Source: Triparma columacea (Eukaryota; Sar; Bolidophyceae; Parmales; Triparmaceae). From it: 38,650 nt of DNA. The notes under the pieces were generated by a model. The model was not told the origin of the DNA and made no database searches. It saw only the letters and a program-made list of their open reading frames with translations. The position numbers and the translations under genes are program-made. Shown one piece after another: positions 5,124 to 19,206 of this stretch. Numbering within the stretch: the first letter of the stretch is position 1; each line of letters opens with the position of its first letter. Where the stretch lies: NCBI GenBank assembly GCA_030267965.1, contig BRYA01000558.1, positions 1 to 38,650 on the forward strand, in the 5' to 3' direction.

Positions 5124-6740
5124 ATGTCGTGCTTGCCGGTGTCTCCTGGGGAACTAACCCTCCAAATTGACATGTTTGCGCCTAGTATCACCACCACAAT
5201 AGATGAATTCGTGGTGGAAGAAGTAGTATCTGCGGACCTGGGTGTCCTTGCTGGGTTTCAAGGGCACAACAAGGGAAGATCGATAGCAGGTGGTGTAGAT
5301 GGATCGGGAAGCGACCTCGTCGTTGTACAAGACGATGCTGTGATACGGCATGATCTGCTTGTTTGCAAACCATGTGATGAGGATGAGTTTGTGGAGGTTG
5401 TTGCTCAAGGGAAGACCAACAGCAGGAGCAAGGAGAGTAAGAGAGAAACGAGAATGGAATACACTTATGACAATGGCGAAGAAGACTATGACGAGGACGA
5501 TGACTCTTGGGATGGTGATGGTAATGGTGGGGAAAATGATGATGATGAATATAAGCCTGGGTATGATAGTAGCACAATATGGTATACATGCCCGCAAGAG
5601 CGGTGTGAATATAAGGGAAAGATGAGAAGCAGCATTAAGATACACCTTGCTCATATTCACGACATTGGTGTAACCTGGCATGCATGCCCACAAGAGGGTT
5701 GTGAATTTAAGGCGAAGGAGAGAGGTATTCTCAAGAGGCACCTTGCTCTTATTCATGGCATTGGCGTAACGTGGCATAAGTGCCCGCAAGAGAGGTGTGA
5801 ATATAAGGCGAAGGATAGAGCCGTGATCGAGAGGCACCTTGCTCATATTCACGACATTGGTGTAACATGGCATACATGCCCACAAGCGGGTTGTGAATAT
5901 AAGGCGAAGGGGAAAGGCAGCATCAAGCTACACCTTGCCAATTTTCACGATATCGGCGTAACCTGGCATACATGCCCACAAGAGGGTTGTGAATTTAAGG
6001 CGAAGGGGAGAAGCAATATCAAGAGCCACCTTGCCAATATTCACGATATTGGCGTAACCTGGCATAAATGCCCGCAAGAGGGGTGTGAATATAAGACGAA
6101 GACGAAATGCAGTATCAAGTTACACCTTTCTCGTATTCACGACATTGGCGTAACCTGGCATCCATGCCCGCAAGAGGGGTGTCAATATAAGGCGAAGAAG
6201 AAAAGCGAAATCAAGCGCCACCTTGCAGAAGGTCACGACATTGGCGTAACGTGGCATACATGCCCGCAAGAGGGTTGTGAATATAAGGCGAAGGTGAAAC
6301 GCAATCTCAGGTTACACCTTGCTAATATTCACGATATCGGCATAACATGGCATACATGCCCGCAAGAAGGGTGTGAATATAAGACGAAGGAGAGGGGTAT
6401 TCTCAAGAGGCACCTTGCTCATATTCATGACATAGGCGTAACGTGGCATACATGCCCGCAAGAAGGGTGTGAATATAAGGCGAAGGAGAGAGGCAACATC
6501 AAGCAGCACCTTGCTCATGTTCACAATATTGGCGTAACCTGGCATACATGCACGCAAGTGGGGTGTGATTACAAGACGAAGCAGAAAGGCACCCTCAAGG
6601 CCCACCTTGCTAATATTCACAATATTGGCGTAATGTGGCATACATGCCCACAAGAAGGGTGTGAATATAAGGCAAAGCAAAGAGGCGATATCAAGAAGCA
6701 CCTTGCTAATATTCACCGTGAAATTGAAGCGTCTAAGTAG
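5124..6740 (+). CDS. Twelve-finger C2H2 zinc-finger protein
   Basis: 538 residues, single exon. Residues ~1-150 are a unique N-terminus with an acidic stretch (EEDYDEDDDSWDGDGN, ENDDDE). From ~153 to the end there are 12 tandem 32-residue fingers (96-bp DNA repeat, 5580-6718) of pattern C-x4-C-x12-H-x4-H, consensus WHTCPQEGCEYKAK..G.IK.HLAHIH. The spacer DIGVTWH from the last His to the next finger replaces the usual TGEKP linker. Helix positions facing DNA (just before the first His) vary between fingers while the scaffold is almost constant. Family knowledge: such arrays bind DNA or RNA in the nucleus. Start is uncertain: ATG at 5124 has weak context, and the ATG at 5172 (MFAPSITTT) has G at -3. 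Function unknown beyond nucleic-acid binding. Confidence 0.85.
   Translation: MSCLPVSPGELTLQIDMFAPSITTTIDEFVVEEVVSADLGVLAGFQGHNKGRSIAGGVDGSGSDLVVVQDDAVIRHDLLVCKPCDEDEFVEVVAQGKTNSRSKESKRETRMEYTYDNGEEDYDEDDDSWDGDGNGGENDDDEYKPGYDSSTIWYTCPQERCEYKGKMRSSIKIHLAHIHDIGVTWHACPQEGCEFKAKERGILKRHLALIHGIGVTWHKCPQERCEYKAKDRAVIERHLAHIHDIGVTWHTCPQAGCEYKAKGKGSIKLHLANFHDIGVTWHTCPQEGCEFKAKGRSNIKSHLANIHDIGVTWHKCPQEGCEYKTKTKCSIKLHLSRIHDIGVTWHPCPQEGCQYKAKKKSEIKRHLAEGHDIGVTWHTCPQEGCEYKAKVKRNLRLHLANIHDIGITWHTCPQEGCEYKTKERGILKRHLAHIHDIGVTWHTCPQEGCEYKAKERGNIKQHLAHVHNIGVTWHTCTQVGCDYKTKQKGTLKAHLANIHNIGVMWHTCPQEGCEYKAKQRGDIKKHLANIHREIEASK
5580..6718 (+). repeat. 96-bp coding tandem repeat (12 zinc fingers)
   Basis: Twelve direct 96-bp units, each beginning TGGCAT.CATGCCC.CAAGAG and containing CACCTTGC..ATTCACGA. 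High similarity at silent positions suggests recent expansion or gene conversion. Confidence 0.9.
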
Positions 6741-7776: not shown

Positions 7777-8883
7777 TCAATCAGGGCAAGACGTTGTCGT
7801 GCATGAATCCTGCAACTCGGTAGAATAGACATTGTCAAATTCCATCGTCCCGCTTGAGCTGGACGAGACACCCGAACTACAGGTAAGGGTGGCTGTGTAA
7901 TCTGCGTTCAAGATGCCGTATTCAAAAGTTCCGACGATCTCAACGCACTCTCCAGGATCAACATCAACGGTACAAGCTGAATCGAGCGCGTATGATTCAG
8001 AAGTAGTAGTCGTTTCGGACTGGGAGAAGGATTCAGAAACGGCTAAGGAAACACCCTCGGTTGCATCCACGACTTCAAAGTCCTCTTTGAGAGAAATGGT
8101 TAAACCCTCAGTAAGCGTGAGACTCGATGACACGGTCAAGCTTTGCGTCATGGTTGAAGTCCAAACGTAACTGGCCGCGCACGACAAGCTTGTGTCCTGG
8201 CCACCCAAGTTGTTGCATTCGTAGGTAAAGTCGCTGGAGCTGGTTGCCGTGAACTGCACGTTACTGGTCACCACATCGCTCATGACTGGGTCTAAGCAGT
8301 CGGGTTCGCTTTTCGTGCAACCAGAGTCGCAATCGCAGCTCCACTCAAAGATGTCTCCTTTACATTTGAACGTTACTTTGTCCGAGCCTTCGTAGTATGC
8401 GACGTTGTAACTTGTGTCACCACCATCATTTCCATCCTCGATTTTGATTTTTGCTGTATACACGTCTCCTGGGGTTCCCTCGTCACTAAGCTTTATGCAT
8501 TTCGTCTCGCCTACCGGGTACCAATTAGTTTCGTCTGACCACCCTTTGATCTCGAATTTCAGTTCGTAAGCCCCAGAATTTTCGACACACACTTCGTCGG
8601 TATAGAAAGTTGAAGAAGAAGATCCACTTGTGTTGCCCTTGTTGCCCTTGTTGCCCTTCTTGCTCTTCTTGCCCTTCTTGCCCTTGTTGCCCTTGTTGCC
8701 CTTTTTGCTCTTCTTGCCGTTAGCAAAGATGTTGACACTGTCGCTGATGTCATTACCGCCAAAGGCAAAGTCCTGTAGGCCTCTTGAAGGGGACCTCGGC
8801 GATTTGTCAGTGCCGTGGCTAGTGATGGCGAGGAGTACCAAAACTAGCAGTAAAGCAGCGAACAAAGTTACTTGTGACTTCAT
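7777..8883 (-). CDS. Secreted protein with KGN/KGK-repeat leader and aerolysin-like (ETX/MTX2-type) C-terminal domain
   Basis: 368 residues, single exon. Residues 1-24 are a signal peptide (LFAALLLVLVLLAITSHG). About 56-84 is a Lys/Gly/Asn tract of KGN and KGK triplets. A Cys-containing middle domain (~95-200; KCKGDIFEWSCDCDSGC) follows. The last ~165 residues have long Ser/Thr-rich alternating strands, a putative insertion hairpin (SLTVSSSLTLTEGLTISL...), then CTVDVDPGECVEIVGTF and DYTATLTC, the order seen in aerolysin-fold pore-forming proteins. The aerolysin call rests on this pattern only. Role is unknown; such proteins in algae may serve defence, endomembrane remodelling or prey interaction. 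Leader and upstream region are shared with the gene at 10004-12630. No sign of disruption. Confidence 0.7.
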   Translation of the reverse strand: MKSQVTLFAALLLVLVLLAITSHGTDKSPRSPSRGLQDFAFGGNDISDSVNIFANGKKSKKGNKGNKGKKGKKSKKGNKGNKGNTSGSSSSTFYTDEVCVENSGAYELKFEIKGWSDETNWYPVGETKCIKLSDEGTPGDVYTAKIKIEDGNDGGDTSYNVAYYEGSDKVTFKCKGDIFEWSCDCDSGCTKSEPDCLDPVMSDVVTSNVQFTATSSSDFTYECNNLGGQDTSLSCAASYVWTSTMTQSLTVSSSLTLTEGLTISLKEDFEVVDATEGVSLAVSESFSQSETTTTSESYALDSACTVDVDPGECVEIVGTFEYGILNADYTATLTCSSGVSSSSSGTMEFDNVYSTELQDSCTTTSCPD

Positions 8884-9901: not shown

Positions 9902-9949
<48 letters not shown>

Positions 9950-10003
9950 TTGTCCTTGCCCCCCTTACTCCTCGTCCGATGTGTCCTCGTCCGATATGTC
10001 CGC
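9231..10003. other. Intergenic region holding the 3' flank of the DUF285 gene
   Basis: No gene seen. 9590-9692 matches the 3' flank of the aerolysin-like gene. Four imperfect 18-bp copies of CCCCCATTTCACGTCCAT lie at about 9676-9741, and a hexamer microsatellite follows. The part at 9240-9580 is A/T-rich and featureless. Confidence 0.5.
9902..9957 (+). repeat. (CTGTCC)n hexanucleotide microsatellite
   Basis: About eight near-perfect copies of CTGTCC followed by CTTGTC variants, 50-100 bp downstream of the DUF285 gene stop codon. Confidence 0.92.
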
Positions 10004-12630
10004 CTACTCTGAGGTGCAGTTGTTTTGGCCCTGTACGTACTTTCCGGAGCCAGAGGTGGTACCGGCAGGGCAATCAATGCATTCTCCGTTAGCGTCGGGT
10101 TCCAGATTAGTTGTTGGTTGGCCAGAAACAAAGAACATGTCAAAAAAATTACCATCCAAGACTTTGCAGACGTTCCAGACCGTGACGTCCTTGACAAAGG
10201 CAAGTGCGTAATAGAACATAGCCCTCATGTCAGTGACACTCGAGACATCCCAACTCCCAATATCCTGGTTGAAGACATAAGCGTTACTGCGTTGAATTCA
10301 ATGCCGCGTGGACATGTGCGAGATGAGATTTGCGTGTGCGTGGGTGAATGTTAGAATGAGAAGCGAGTGTATTACTAAATATAGAATGCAGCAAAGATAG
10401 TACGCAAACAATGAAGACCTCATCTCCAAAGCATCTCTCAATACTCACCTGAACATATTATACATGGTAGTGACACTCGAGACATCCCAATTCCCAATAT
10501 CCTGGTTGAAGTCATTAGCGCGACTGCGTTAAATTCAATGCCGAGTGCAGATGTGCGAGATGAGATTTGCGTGTGCGTTTGTGAATGTTAGAATGAGAAG
10601 CGAATGTATTACTTAAAATAGAATGCAGCAAAGATAGCACGCAAACCAAGAAAACCACCACTCCAGAGCATCTCTCAATACTCACCCGAACATATTAGCC
10701 ATGTCAGTGACACTGGAGACATCCCAACTTCCAATATCCTGGTTGAAGACAATCGCGGCACTGCGTTTAATTAAAGGCCGAGTGGAAATGTGCGAGATGA
10801 GATTTACGTGTGCGTGTGTGAATGTTAGAATGAGAAACGAGTATATTACTCAAAATAGAATGCAGCAAAGATAACACGCAAACTACGAAGACCTCATCTC
10901 TAAAGCATCTCTCAATACTCACCCGAACATATCATACATTTCAGTGACACTCGAGACATTCCAACTCCCAATATCCTTGTTGAAGACATATGCCGAACTG
11001 CGTTTGATTCAAGGCAGAGTGGAGAAGTGCGAGATTAGATTTGCGTGTGCGTGTGCGAATGTTAGAATGAGAAGCGACCGTATTACTTAAAATAGAATGC
11101 AGCAAAGATAGCACGCAAACCACGAAGACGTCTACTCCAAAGCATCTCTCAATACTTACCTGAACATAGATTGCATGTCAGTGACACTCTCGACATCCCA
11201 ATTTCCAATATTCTGGTTGAAGGCAAGTGCGGCCCTGCGTTAATTCAATGTCGAGTGGTGATGTGCGAGATGAAATTTGCGTGTGCGTGTGTGAATGTTA
11301 GAATGACAAGCGAAAATCGGATACAGCAAAGATAGCACGGAAACCACGAAAACCTCCACTCCAGCGCATCTCTCAGTACTCACGCGAACATATTAGACAT
11401 GGTGGTGACACTCGAGACATTCCAACTCCCAATATCCTTGTTGAAGACATATGCCGAACTGCGTTTGATTCAAGGCAGAGTGGAGAAGTGCAAGATGAGA
11501 TTTGCGTGTGCGTTTGTGAATGTTAGAATGAGAAGCGATTATATTACTCAAAATAGAATGCAGCAAAGATAGCATGCAAACAAGGAAGACCTCATCTCCA
11601 AAGCATCTCTCAGTACTCACAAGAACATTCCATCCATGTTAGTGACACTCGAGACATCCCAACTCCCAATATCCTGGTTGAAGACAAATGCCTGACTGCG
11701 TTTATTTCAATGCCAGTGGAAATGTGCGAGATGAAATTTGCGTGTGCGTGTGTGAATGTTAGAATGAGAAGCGAGAATATAATTTAAAATATAATACAGC
11801 AAAGATAACACGCAAACTACGAAGACCTCCACTAAAAAGCATCTCTCAATACTCACAGGAACATATACTTCATGTCAGTGACACTCGAGACGTCCCATTC
11901 GCTGATATCCTCGTTGAATACAACTTTGCCTTCGAATGCATTCGACATGTCAGTGACATCCCTCGTGCACCTGCTCAGCCGGCGATTTGATTTGGGTCCG
12001 CAGGGGGCGGATTGCCGAGAGGAGAATATGAGGGTTAGTTGTTACTGGGGCTCGCGTGTTCACCCTCCCGTGATGCTTCGTTGTCCCGTCCTACTTTGTC
12101 CGCTTGCCCACCACATAGCCCCATCTGCATCCTCTCTACTCGCTTGTTCTTCCAACTACTTACCAGTCCGTGATGTTGCCGTATGTGCTTGTCGCACTGG
12201 TAGGATCAGAAAACCAGGCATCAAGTGCAATCCTGAAGGTATCATCGTTGAGGCAGGGTAGAGTAGGTGCAGGAGTTGGAGCAGGCGTTGGGCTATCAGT
12301 TGGCTGCGGAGTTGTGACCTTGTTGCCCTTGTTGCCTTTCTTGCCTTTCTTGCCCTTGTTGCCTTTCTTGCCCTTGTTGCCCTTGTTGCCCTTGTTGCCC
12401 TTGTTGCCCTTGTTGCCCTTGTTGCCCTTGTTGCTCTTCCCAAAACTACCAAGAGTGGTTGCTTCAACAGGAAAGGTTGCTTTGTTGACTTCTTTCAACA
12501 CATCCATGCTGGTGCTGTCAGAAAGGCCTCTTGAAGGGGACCTCAGCGATTTGTCAGTCCCGTGGCTAGTGATGACGAGGAGTACAAAAACTAGCAGCAA
12601 AGCAGCGAACAAAGTGACTAGTGACTTCAT
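10004..12630 (-). CDS. Secreted DUF285/BspA-type repeat protein encoded by a tandem exon array (9 exons)
   Basis: Hand-built exons on the minus strand: 12164-12630, 11857-11970, 11621-11695, 11384-11458, 11160-11234, 10923-10997, 10686-10760, 10449-10523, 10004-10286. All splice sites are GT(G/A)AGT..AG, every intron is phase 2, and the product is 437 residues. Exon 1: signal peptide almost identical to the neighbouring aerolysin-like gene (32 of the first 36 residues), a KGN-repeat tract, then a TP-rich linker and FRIALDAWFSDP. Exon 2 has ITDW-CTRDVTDMSNAF and one repeat. Exons 3-8 are each exactly 75 bp and encode one 25-residue DUF285 repeat, e.g. FNQDIGSWDVSSVTNM. Exon 9 has a last repeat and a Cys-rich end (GECIDCPAGT..NNCTSE). 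DUF285 repeats form right-handed solenoids on secreted or surface proteins. Ligand unknown. Confidence 0.82.
10214..11970 (-). repeat. 237-bp tandem exon-intron unit array
   Basis: Direct repeats of a 75-bp exon plus a mostly 162-bp intron (161 for the first, 149 for one). Conserved intron blocks include GCGTGTGCGTGTGTGAATGT, TTAGAATGAGAAGCGA, ATAGAATGCAGCAAAGATA and AGCATCTCTCAATACTCAC (plus strand). Both exons and introns are well conserved, so the whole unit was duplicated. Confidence 0.92.
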
Positions 12631-17262: not shown

Positions 17263-19206
17263 TTACAGAAACTCCAGAATTACTCTCCACAAAACTTTCG
17301 GCATATCTCCAGCTCCGTCCATTTGCTCCAGACTACCCGGTCCAATTGGGTGATTCTCCTCGTGATCCCAGGTTCTCTTAAGGCACAGTAGAACGGTGAC
17401 GCGTTCACGTATGCGGTGCCACCTGTAATGGAGAAGGTCCTCGACAGTCAGCATGTTTTTATCAGCAGCAGCAGTGATTAGGGCGGTGCAGCCCCAGAAG
17501 CAGTCTGAACCGATGAAGACAGCAGGAGATAGACTGAGTTTCGTTAGGGCGGAGCATCCGAGGAAGGTGGAATGGCCGATCATCGTCACTGAGTCCGGGA
17601 TGGTGATGGCCGTGAGGGAGGAGCATCTGTAGAAGGCGCCATCGCCAATCGACGTCACTCCATCAGGGATGGTGATGGCCGTGAGGGAGGAGCATCCTCT
17701 GAAGGCGGCACGGCCAATCTCCGTCACTGAGTCCGGGATGGTGATGGCCGTGAGGGAGGAGCATTCGTAGAAGGCGCATTCGCCAATCGTTGTCACTCCA
17801 TCCGGGATGGTGATGGCCGTGAGGGAGGAGCATCTGCAGAAGGCGCCCTCGCAAATCGTCGTCACTCCGTCTGGGATGGTGATGGCAGTGAGGGAGGAGC
17901 ATTCGTAGAAGGCGCCCTCGCAAATTGTCGTCACTGAGTCCGGGATGGTGATGGCCGTGAGGGAGGAGCATGAGTGGAAGGCATCTGCTTCAATCGTTGT
18001 CACTCCATCCGGGATGATGATAGCCTTGAGGGAGGAGCATCCTCTGAAGACGGCACGGCCAATCTCCGTCACTGAGTCCGGGATGGTGATGGCCGTGAGG
18101 GAGGAGCATTCGTAGAAGGCGCATTCGCCAATCGTTGTCACTCCGTCTGGGATGGCGATGGCCGTGAGGGAGGAGCATCTGCGGAAGGCGGCAACGCCTA
18201 TTGTCGTCACTGAGTCCGGGATAGTGATGGCCGTGAGGGAGGAGCATGAGTGGAAGGCATCTGCTTCAATCGTTGTCACTCCATCCGGGATGATGATAGC
18301 CTTGAGGGAGGAGCATCCGTAGAAGGCGCCCTCACTAATCGTCGTCACTCCGTCTGGGATTGTGATGGCCGTGAGCGAGGAGCATCTGTAGAAGGCGCCA
18401 TCGCCAATCATCATCACTCCGTCCAGGATGGTGATGGCTGTGAGGGAGGAGCATCCGTCGAAGGCGGCAGAGCCAATCGTGGTCACCAAGTCCGGGATTG
18501 TGATGGCTTCGAGGGAGGAGCATTCGTAGAAGGCGAATTTGCCAACCTTTGTCACTCCTTCAGGGATTATGATGGCCGTGAGGGAGGAGCACCCCCTGAA
18601 GGTTGCATTGTCAATCATCGTCACTCCGTCCGGGATGGTGATTGCCGTGAGGGAGGAGCATTCGAACAAGGCGCCAACGCCAATAGACGTCACTCCATCT
18701 GGGATGGTGATGGCCGTGAGGGAGGAGCATTCGTAGAAGGTGTATTCGCCAATCTTCGTTACTCCGTCTGGGATGGTGATGGCCGTGAGGGAGGAGCATC
18801 CTCTGAAGGCGGCACGGCCAATCTCCGTCACTGAGTCCGGGATGGTGATGGCCGTGAGGGAGGAGCATCTGTAGAAGGCGCCATCGCCAATCGACGTCAC
18901 TCCGTCTGGGATGGTAATAGCCGTGAGGGAGGAGCATCTGTAGAAGGCGCCCTTTTCAATCGACGTCAGTCCTTGTGCAAAAGTCACTTCTGTGAGTTCA
19001 CGATTGCCTCTGAAGCTCTCTGTTCCGGAGTACACTGCTGTTTTGGGAAGGGGATAGTACCCAGCTGGGACGTCATAGTCATCACTATACTCATCACTAT
19101 CGTCATCACTATACTCATCACTATCGTCATCACTATAGTCATCACCATGGTCATCACTATTTTCATCACTATCGTCATCACCAAAAGCAAAGTCTAATTC
19201 ACTCAT
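17263..19206 (-). CDS. BspA-type leucine-rich-repeat (LRR_5) protein with acidic N-terminus
   Basis: 647 residues, single exon. Residues ~8-45 are an Asp/Ser/Glu/Tyr-rich acidic stretch (DDDSDEYSDD repeats) with no signal peptide, so the protein is probably intracellular. About 60-565 is a solenoid of roughly 21 repeats of 23 residues, consensus FYRCSSLTAITIPDGVTTIG.GA (69-bp DNA repeat), which is the LRR_5/BspA type. A distinct ~60-residue C-terminal cap follows (DLLHYRWHRIRERVTVLLCL..W), a tail I associate with large LRR_5 families in stramenopile genomes. Such repeats mediate protein-protein contacts; partner unknown. Near-identity of many repeats suggests continuing expansion or conversion. 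The upstream region has a single CTAACCCTAACCC stretch. Confidence 0.85.
   Translation of the reverse strand: MSELDFAFGDDDSDENSDDHGDDYSDDDSDEYSDDDSDEYSDDYDVPAGYYPLPKTAVYSGTESFRGNRELTEVTFAQGLTSIEKGAFYRCSSLTAITIPDGVTSIGDGAFYRCSSLTAITIPDSVTEIGRAAFRGCSSLTAITIPDGVTKIGEYTFYECSSLTAITIPDGVTSIGVGALFECSSLTAITIPDGVTMIDNATFRGCSSLTAIIIPEGVTKVGKFAFYECSSLEAITIPDLVTTIGSAAFDGCSSLTAITILDGVMMIGDGAFYRCSSLTAITIPDGVTTISEGAFYGCSSLKAIIIPDGVTTIEADAFHSCSSLTAITIPDSVTTIGVAAFRRCSSLTAIAIPDGVTTIGECAFYECSSLTAITIPDSVTEIGRAVFRGCSSLKAIIIPDGVTTIEADAFHSCSSLTAITIPDSVTTICEGAFYECSSLTAITIPDGVTTICEGAFCRCSSLTAITIPDGVTTIGECAFYECSSLTAITIPDSVTEIGRAAFRGCSSLTAITIPDGVTSIGDGAFYRCSSLTAITIPDSVTMIGHSTFLGCSALTKLSLSPAVFIGSDCFWGCTALITAAADKNMLTVEDLLHYRWHRIRERVTVLLCLKRTWDHEENHPIGPGSLEQMDGAGDMPKVLWRVILEFL
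17550..18990 (-). repeat. 69-bp coding tandem repeat (LRR_5)
   Basis: About 21 copies of a 69-bp unit containing GTGATGGCCGTGAGGGAGGA on the plus strand. Higher-order blocks of several units recur (e.g. the CATGAGTGGAAGGCATCTGC variant twice). Confidence 0.92.

Follow-up and report, generated by a model that had tools for sequence, protein, structure and literature searches.

How does a gene evolve in which each protein repeat is carried by its own exon, equal in length and phase to its neighbours? The question is raised by a gene on the minus strand (positions 12630-10004) of contig BRYA01000558.1 of the bolidophycean alga Triparma columacea, a stretch of 38,650 nucleotides that was analysed at its full length and is referred to here as the window (contig C494 of the 37.85-Mb, 789-contig assembly GCA_030267965.1; other C-labels denote contigs of the same assembly). 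The initial annotation regarded the gene as an array of exon cassettes encoding a secreted DUF285 protein, which would change in length by unequal crossing over and might yield many isoforms through alternative splicing. The gene is one locus of a large family, whose roughly 300 units, spread over dozens of loci, have an exon core and an intron in common. We consider it moderately probable that these units constitute a genome-wide pool evolving in concert through gene conversion over short tracts between non-allelic units, while a patch of residues is under diversifying selection.

When the nine exons are joined across the eight introns, a single open frame of 437 amino acids results, with its stop at 10004. 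As first described, six consecutive internal exons (exons 3-8) measure exactly 75 bp each and all introns (8/8) are in phase 2; intron 1 is 193 bp long and the seven family introns are 161, 162, 149, 162, 162, 162 and 162 bp, the prevalent length of 162 bp thus holding for five of the eight. The 237-bp tandem unit was found independently by Tandem Repeats Finder (period 237 bp, 7.1 copies, 82% matches, 10226-11897), and exon 2 ends and exon 9 starts at the repeat boundary, in keeping with the claim that both hold repeats with the same boundaries. Any subset of the 75-bp exons stays in frame, and with equal length and phase the exchange, loss or skipping of any unit is therefore frame-neutral. 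A single detail needs correction: the alternation of Q and K attributed to the second position of the FNxD motif lies at the third (codon 7). The gene is laid out as follows, in the order of transcription.

12164-12630, minus strand: exon 1 (467 bp), with genome matches, encoding a hydrophobic leader, a KGNKGN-type basic low-complexity linker, a PTxAPTPAPT linker and an N-terminal cap (PCLNDDTFRIALDAWFSDPTSATSTYGNITD; cap TFRIALDAWFSDPTSATSTYGNITDW)
11971-12163, minus strand: intron 1, 193 bp, phase 2, GTAAGT...GAGCAG, outside the repeat-intron family
11857-11970, minus strand: exon 2, 114 bp, the first DUF285 repeat, stopping at the repeat boundary
11696-11856, minus strand: family intron, 161 bp
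11621-11695, minus strand: 75-bp repeat exon (QAFVFNQDIGSWDVSSVTNMDGMF)
11459-11620, minus strand: family intron, 162 bp
11384-11458, minus strand: 75-bp repeat exon (SAYVFNKDIGSWNVSSVTTMSNMF)
11235-11383, minus strand: family intron, 149 bp (shorter by 13 bp)
11160-11234, minus strand: 75-bp repeat exon (AALAFNQNIGNWDVESVTDMQSMF)
10998-11159, minus strand: family intron, 162 bp
10923-10997, minus strand: 75-bp repeat exon (SAYVFNKDIGSWNVSSVTEMYDMF)
10761-10922, minus strand: family intron, 162 bp, of which 10767-10920 was the query of the genome-wide intron search (best copies at other loci 94% identical)
10686-10760, minus strand: 75-bp repeat exon (AAIVFNQDIGSWDVSSVTDMANMF)
10524-10685, minus strand: family intron, 162 bp
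10449-10523, minus strand: 75-bp repeat exon (RANDFNQDIGNWDVSSVTTMYNMF)
10287-10448, minus strand: family intron, 162 bp
10004-10286, minus strand: exon 9 (283 bp, stop included), with the last full repeat, a terminal repeat, a Cys-containing tail (CIDCPAGTTSGSGKYVQGQNNCTSE) and the stop

Family measurements were made on 243 kb of the same genome, the window included, in 50 merged segments picked by unit matches. The intron profile was built from 162-bp introns lying between 75-bp exons; exon length was not assumed when gaps were measured. The profile gave 310 matches, 303 of them full-length and 302 with both ends. The regularity is not due to chance: gaps of up to 300 bp between successive family introns were exactly 75 bp long in 227 of 247 cases and a multiple of three in 246, the remaining lengths being 72 (six gaps), 84 (two), 90 (two) and, once each, 81, 87, 96, 99, 111, 150, 159, 273 and 300 bp, with one of 227 bp as the sole gap out of frame; eighteen gaps above 300 bp, taken to cover other introns or gene ends, were excluded. 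The 227 exons of 75 bp lie on 37 contig-strands, and the 226 without a stop were used in later tests; the sole unit with an in-frame stop is at C272:998 on the plus strand. Fully flanked 75-bp exons number 1 to 22 per contig-strand, figures that are partial because several arrays were read only in part.

Searches of the genome returned at least 279 matches to the 237-bp unit (best 40 of 83 candidates scored), at least 228 to the intron alone (best 40 of 86 candidates scored) and at least 195 to DUF285, many of these within long uninterrupted frames (best 150 of 571 candidates scored). The family counts are lower bounds because some arrays run into contig ends, as in C485, where an intron copy starts from base 2, and C423, which ends at 51674 with its last unit at 51617. 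Exon 1 has 64 genome matches, 25 of which begin at residue 1 (the window gene and its neighbour among them) and 39 of which cover only later parts, such as the cap, so that the expected further arrays and copies of the leader exon were indeed found. Removal of the family introns opens frames of 593 (C524), 408 (C439) and 328 (C4) amino acids, from exon 2 to the tail, and a Cys-containing tail of the exon 9 type is present at all three. On C439, modules of cap, repeat array and Cys-containing tail follow one another (L054, L072, L023), one nearly intronless and flanked by two intron-split ones; on C51 (548-701, minus strand; L083), a family intron lies inside an apparent short DUF285 gene with a different leader. 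Downstream of the window gene's stop, at 9902-9955, stand nine CTGTCC hexamers, and a like stretch (DRDRDR in another frame) occurs at the C4 locus.

The lengths of the exons vary in steps of three while those of the introns are free (the 126 introns of lengths other than 162 bp leave remainders of 0, 1 and 2 upon division by three in 25, 53 and 48 cases), which supports splicing. Of 303 family introns, 299 have the donor GTGAGT and 302 the acceptor AG. No 7-mer is better conserved than GTGAGTA across the 130 ungapped introns, and 275 of 302 introns contain TTCTAAC, which resembles a branch point and lies exactly 64 nucleotides from the 3' end in 216 introns. Retention of the next intron brings in an in-frame stop in all 226 units, and 226 of the 227 exons are stop-free when read in phase 2. 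Base frequencies predict 20.4, 14.8 and 6.4 occurrences before the intron of TG, CA and CC, the dinucleotides that would begin a Cys, His or Pro codon, but none is seen, and in 214 of 226 units the intron is followed by T (split codon NN|T); thus, both sides of the intron behave as one codon, as is best explained by their joint translation.

Intronless blocks of the same sequence type as the intron units occur in C524, C4, C439, C634 and C368, with a third-position identity of 0.92-0.98 to the intron-unit consensus. The third base of the split codon is T in 23 of 28 such repeats, in 2 of 33 repeats from nine loci grouped as an older type, and in 19 of the 23 remaining intronless repeats, which are located in intron-family genes. 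For the intron-unit-type blocks this pattern fits precise intron loss from spliced copies; the change may also have run in the opposite direction. In C524 (33466-34290; L078), eleven intronless repeats of the intron-unit type stand consecutively, directly upstream of intron-split repeats and in one frame with them; the 75 bp of one of the eleven recur unchanged seven repeats further on, and C4 contains a near-copy of a section of this block. Intron loss mediated by complementary DNA is a possible origin of this block.

The case for a single pool comes from how similarity is distributed. Introns are nearly as alike between contigs as within them (0.896 versus 0.900), as are the third positions of conserved codons (0.933 versus 0.931), and the likeness of introns between loci is nearly uncorrelated with that of the variable exon sites (0.03). 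Of the 226 units, the 130 whose upstream intron is 162 bp long and free of gaps were used for the linkage and tract tests. For pairs of common intron sites, the squared correlation (r2) falls from 0.0865 at a distance of 1-2 bp to 0.0119 at 5-9 bp, measures 0.0148 at 10-19 bp and 0.0103 at 20-39 bp, and from 40 bp onwards is at the shuffled level (0.0081 versus 0.0077). Linkage is strong inside small groups of exon sites (codons 2-3, z 17; codons 21-22, z 13; codons 1-3, z 7), whereas between these cassettes and across the upstream intron only one of thirteen tests reached p < 0.05 (codons 1 and 25, p 0.046); codons 22 and 25, six bases apart, are unlinked.

Identical tracts of 90-153 bp are shared by 16 pairs of units against 1.8 in shuffles, with an identity of 0.80-0.91 outside the tracts, and 12 of the 16 pairs join different contigs. 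Identical runs of at least 100 bp were found in 10 pairs, as compared to none in five shuffles, and runs of at least 200 bp in none of 8385 pairs. The window gene itself holds an 87-bp identical tract common to the unit at 11384-11458 and that at 10997, two units apart, which spans the last 33 bp of the upstream intron and the first 54 bp of the exon. Conversion from random donors at neutral sites was simulated forward in time for an assumed 300 units (two runs for each setting). A mean tract of 50 bp gave a nucleotide diversity (pi) of 0.105-0.110 and, at 10-19 bp, an r2 of 0.011-0.017; 100-bp runs arose in 7-11 pairs (9 observed in introns), whereas 100-bp tracts gave 22-27 such pairs and 20-bp tracts 1 and 21. 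Judged by diversity, linkage decay and the tail of tract lengths, the data are matched best by about 50 bp among the three lengths simulated. We judged chimeric assembly an improbable source of the missing linkage, as mis-joins require extended identity, whereas r2 is already as low as 0.012-0.015 at 5-19 bp.

Against this uniform background, the variable residues noted at the outset resolve into seven hypervariable codons: the first two positions of codons 1, 3, 4, 19, 21 and 22, together with the first two bases of codon 25, have a mean pi of 0.60, compared to 0.058 for the other codons, 0.124 for third positions of conserved codons and 0.103 for introns. In the protein these residues adjoin one another (T-x19-M-x21-x22-M-F-x25-x1-A-x3-x4), with the intron in their middle. 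Codons 1, 3, 21, 22 and 25 are rich in Tyr (15%), Ser (11%), Gly (11%), Glu (10%) and Asn (10%), and Cys is absent. At codons 1, 3, 21 and 22, stops (0 versus 63.7 expected), Cys (0 versus 32.4), His (2 versus 32.6) and Pro (2 versus 17.9) are depleted, and Tyr, Ser, Glu, Gln, Gly and Phe are in excess. Distinct cassettes of codons 1-4 are shared between contigs in 26 cases, against 14.3 (maximum 23) in 300 codon shuffles, and seem to move as blocks; for codons 19-22 the same test was not significant (32 versus 27.3, maximum 37). The high diversity of the seven codons relative to the introns suggests diversifying selection for recognition or adhesion.

The domain itself is not in doubt: PF03382 (DUF285) scored 323 bits against a cut-off of 25 with a 438-residue version of the query, for which the Pfam scan also gave a collagen-like match in the low-complexity linker and BILBO1_N below the cut-off. 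The window protein, with its visible hydrophobic leader, KGNKGN-type linker, cap, DUF285 repeats and Cys-containing tail, is probably secreted. A protein database yielded 7599 relatives among 7898 candidates scored; the named ones among the best 120 matches listed are mostly bacterial or archaeal. An AlphaFold model of an environmental relative (P0049, not the window protein) has a predicted local distance difference test score (pLDDT) of 94-98 across most repeats and one beta-bridge per 25 residues, at codon 19, in each regular repeat; it had no PDB match at E <= 0.001, and a search of solved structures by sequence returned no match. From leader, solenoid and variable patch together, we infer a role in recognition or adhesion. 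A neighbouring gene (7777-8883, minus strand) carries the same leader (93% over a 107-nucleotide alignment), a homologous upstream region (83% over 354 columns) and a similar K/G/N-rich linker on a different body, with no Pfam match above the cut-off. A search of the protein database with the leader returned P0121, from an ENA contig, in which a very similar leader precedes another, different body of 438 residues, and ten weaker matches, several labelled collagen-like. The leader looks like a reusable secretion module.

The process that we favour, conversion within one pool, would operate as follows. Short patches of the order of 50-100 bp would be copied between non-allelic units throughout the genome, which would keep the intron and the exon core alike. 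The same copying would reassort three small cassettes of variable sites, namely codons 1-4, codons 19-22 and bases 1 and 2 of codon 25, between which lie the 42-bp exon core, the hexamer ATGTTC and the intron; selection for diversity at the variable residues would maintain the differences among these cassettes. The product, in a more speculative step, would be a repertoire of binding surfaces for the recognition of, or adhesion to, a partner, prey, virus or mate. A bolder version, which we put forward only tentatively, is that several hundred cassettes serve as a single gene pool, with intron and exon core as homology handles for constant patch copying, perhaps by a dedicated or RNA-templated mechanism, which would yield ever new combinations of the three hypervariable surface cassettes, i.e. 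as a germline repertoire generator for recognition proteins.

Several points weigh against this interpretation. The data come from one genome assembly, which provides neither rates nor polymorphism, and splicing of the family introns is inferred from evolutionary signs. The linkage and tract tests cover part of the units, the 16 long-tract pairs reuse some units, and the simulation was compared with the data rather than fitted to them; with 50-bp tracts it gives a linkage at 3-9 bp of 0.018-0.025, above the 0.012-0.014 seen. The same codons are equally variable in the intronless arrays of this genome and, by consensus, variable in environmental relatives; therefore, the intron is not required for variability. 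The synonymous third base of codon 2 has a diversity of 0.605, so some diverse sites are not themselves selected. The 84 intronless DUF285 repeats are more alike within than between contigs (0.793 versus 0.518), but they mix sequence types, 28 being of the intron-unit type, which lowers the between-contig value, and they thus show locus-wise or type-wise evolution rather than provide a clean one-variable control. Furthermore, pairs on the same contig, 3.4% of all pairs, are in excess among the long-tract pairs (4 of 16), the nearest intron relatives (37 of 226) and the exons matched by another exon at 70 or more of their 75 bases (25 of 55); these counts indicate that local copying is not rare. 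At the variable codons, identity is a little higher within contigs than between them (0.481 versus 0.459), and the 22-unit array of C686 shows a lag-3 peak there (0.555 versus 0.45-0.51); adjoining units are weakly associated at certain codons (three of ten tests, p 0.014-0.025).

This local signal is what tandem duplication by unequal crossing over, moving whole 237-bp exon-intron units, would produce, and that process would also account for tandem arrays of a single period, for unit numbers that range from 1 to 22 and for the exact copy seven repeats away in the intronless block of C524. As the main driver, which the initial annotation had proposed, it is nonetheless quite unlikely: identity within and between contigs is nearly equal, only 37 of the 226 nearest intron relatives are on the same contig, no identical run reaches 200 bp, the introns of C686 carry no lag signal (0.893-0.909 at lags 1-11), and simulated whole-unit copying gave an r2 of about 0.2-0.36 against the roughly 0.01 seen beyond 2 bp, an excess of ~18 to 35 times at 10 bp and more. 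On the identity pattern and the simulation, we reject whole-unit duplication as the main process, though local copying clearly contributes. A recent burst, in which all units arose from one ancestor at about the same time and then mutated independently without exchange, would give the star-like appearance of near-uniform pairwise identity (about 0.90) with almost no linkage; we regard it as improbable, given that linkage exceeds the shuffled level up to about 40 bp and falls with distance, that identical runs of 100 bp exceed those in shuffles, and that several intron sites have two common alleles, transversions included. Moreover, near-saturated variable codons would hardly be reached, without strong selection, in the time of a 10% intron difference. 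Even less can be said for introner-type mobile elements inserted separately into pre-existing repeats, a reading to which we attach almost no probability. It would explain why introns are alike genome-wide almost regardless of locus, but the DUF285 motif stands on both sides of 287 of 302 family introns by pattern, and the other 15, inspected by eye, comprise four at segment ends and two beside Ns, in which one side is out of view, and nine with a variant or stop-bearing repeat. Exon third positions are as homogeneous as the introns (0.93), and exon and intron therefore share a history; we reject introner insertion on position and exon homogeneity. No family intron was seen in an unrelated gene or position among the 302, in stretches whose choice by unit matches is biased against other places, the 228 matches of the genome-wide intron search not having been inspected one by one for the surrounding gene.

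Other readings concern what the variation is for. The variable codons could be old and unconstrained, without selection for diversity, conversion homogenizing only the well-matched core and intron because tracts halt at mismatches. Variation at the same positions in intronless arrays and the equally diverse, linked third base of codon 2 are consistent with that explanation; the apparent block movement of the codon 1-4 cassettes, which is lacking for codons 19-22, and an amino-acid use far from random at codons 1, 3, 21 and 22 argue against it, and we give it a limited chance. That the array mainly provides many isoforms through alternative exon use is unlikely: every exon subset does stay in frame, and multiple splice variants are described for brown-algal ROCO genes with 72-bp phase-2 leucine-rich repeat (LRR) exons (PMC11378527), but donor and acceptor signals are uniformly strong here, which does not suggest regulated skipping. 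Finally, the protein might serve something other than recognition, as a structural protein of the wall or as a solenoid that is cold-related or binds ice. In diatoms, genes and transcripts with DUF285 abound at high latitudes; a cold-related role has been proposed there for the domain, and its solenoid has been compared to antifreeze proteins (PMC11992049). Other bodies also carry the leader and the basic linker, as might be the case for a shared targeting module. A regular ice-binding face would not be expected to show near-saturated diversity at the same positions in every repeat, and we hold functions of this kind to be possible, though not likely.

The window includes further repeat genes, namely a C2H2 zinc-finger gene made from a 96-bp tandem repeat of 11.8 copies (5580-6716, plus strand) and a BspA-type LRR_5 protein with a 69-bp tandem repeat of 20.7 copies in a single uninterrupted frame, i.e. 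an intronless repeat-solenoid gene (17263-19206, minus strand), as well as a chlorophyll a/b-binding gene.

Among known systems, the surface proteins of the BspA family or with DUF285 domains share the 25-residue repeat seen here, but in the present family, unlike in prokaryotic BspA-family genes, there is one exon per repeat; to our knowledge, prokaryotic genes lack spliceosomal introns. The zinc-finger arrays of PRDM9 likewise combine a few hypervariable codons with a homogenized repeat, although these are DNA-binding fingers in one exon at a single locus. Literature searches for DUF285 with introns returned no title on exon-per-repeat arrays, those for BspA with exons and diatoms found nothing, and the main text of the Parmales genome paper never mentions intron, tandem or leucine-rich.

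A close parallel is found in Tetrahymena, where tens of thousands of exactly 90-bp phase-2 LRR exons are described as scrambled between genes (PMC6564038). As in the family described here, equal exons in phase 2 stand in tandem, the junction codon is common to neighbouring exons, repeat number varies, and exons are often nearer to those of other genes than to their neighbours, for which ectopic recombination or gene conversion has been proposed (PMC6564038). The phase-2 array (8/8 introns of the window gene; 226/227 75-bp exons stop-free in phase) and, by the identity, linkage and tract tests, the scrambling between genes recur in Triparma, whereas the unit does not: 75 bp and DUF285 replace 90 bp and LRR, only two of 247 short gaps being 90 bp long. 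Furthermore, the Tetrahymena introns are linked to the LINE-like (long interspersed nuclear element) element REP, and only one possible fused exon pair is reported there (PMC6564038), whereas intronless blocks of the same type stand beside intron units here. Linkage decay and variable cassettes were measured in the present family, and the terms 'hypervariable' and 'positive selection' are absent from the main text on Tetrahymena (PMC6564038). In brown algae, the LRR-ROCO genes similarly carry one solenoid repeat per phase-2 exon, with positively selected repeat positions and a proposed recognition role, but they have 72-bp exons, ROC-COR GTPase domains and splice variants (PMC11378527). By contrast, the window protein is 437 amino acids long with 75-bp exons, the Pfam scan of the 438-residue query contained no ROC or COR domain, only 6 of 247 gaps measure 72 bp, and the introns are as alike genome-wide as the exon core. 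The window gene works in a similar way to both groups but, because exon size and domain differ, belongs to neither, and equal phase-2 exon arrays in a ciliate, in brown algae and here, each with its own size (90, 72 and 75 bp), suggest more than one origin of this frame-safe cassette design. Should the proteins serve recognition, the family would be a germline system of diversity in a single-celled, free-living alga, a setting in which self/non-self recognition is little known. As its introns are alike too, exchange between paralogous units can be measured directly, through linkage decay, tract length and, within one genome, the contrast with intronless arrays of the same domain.

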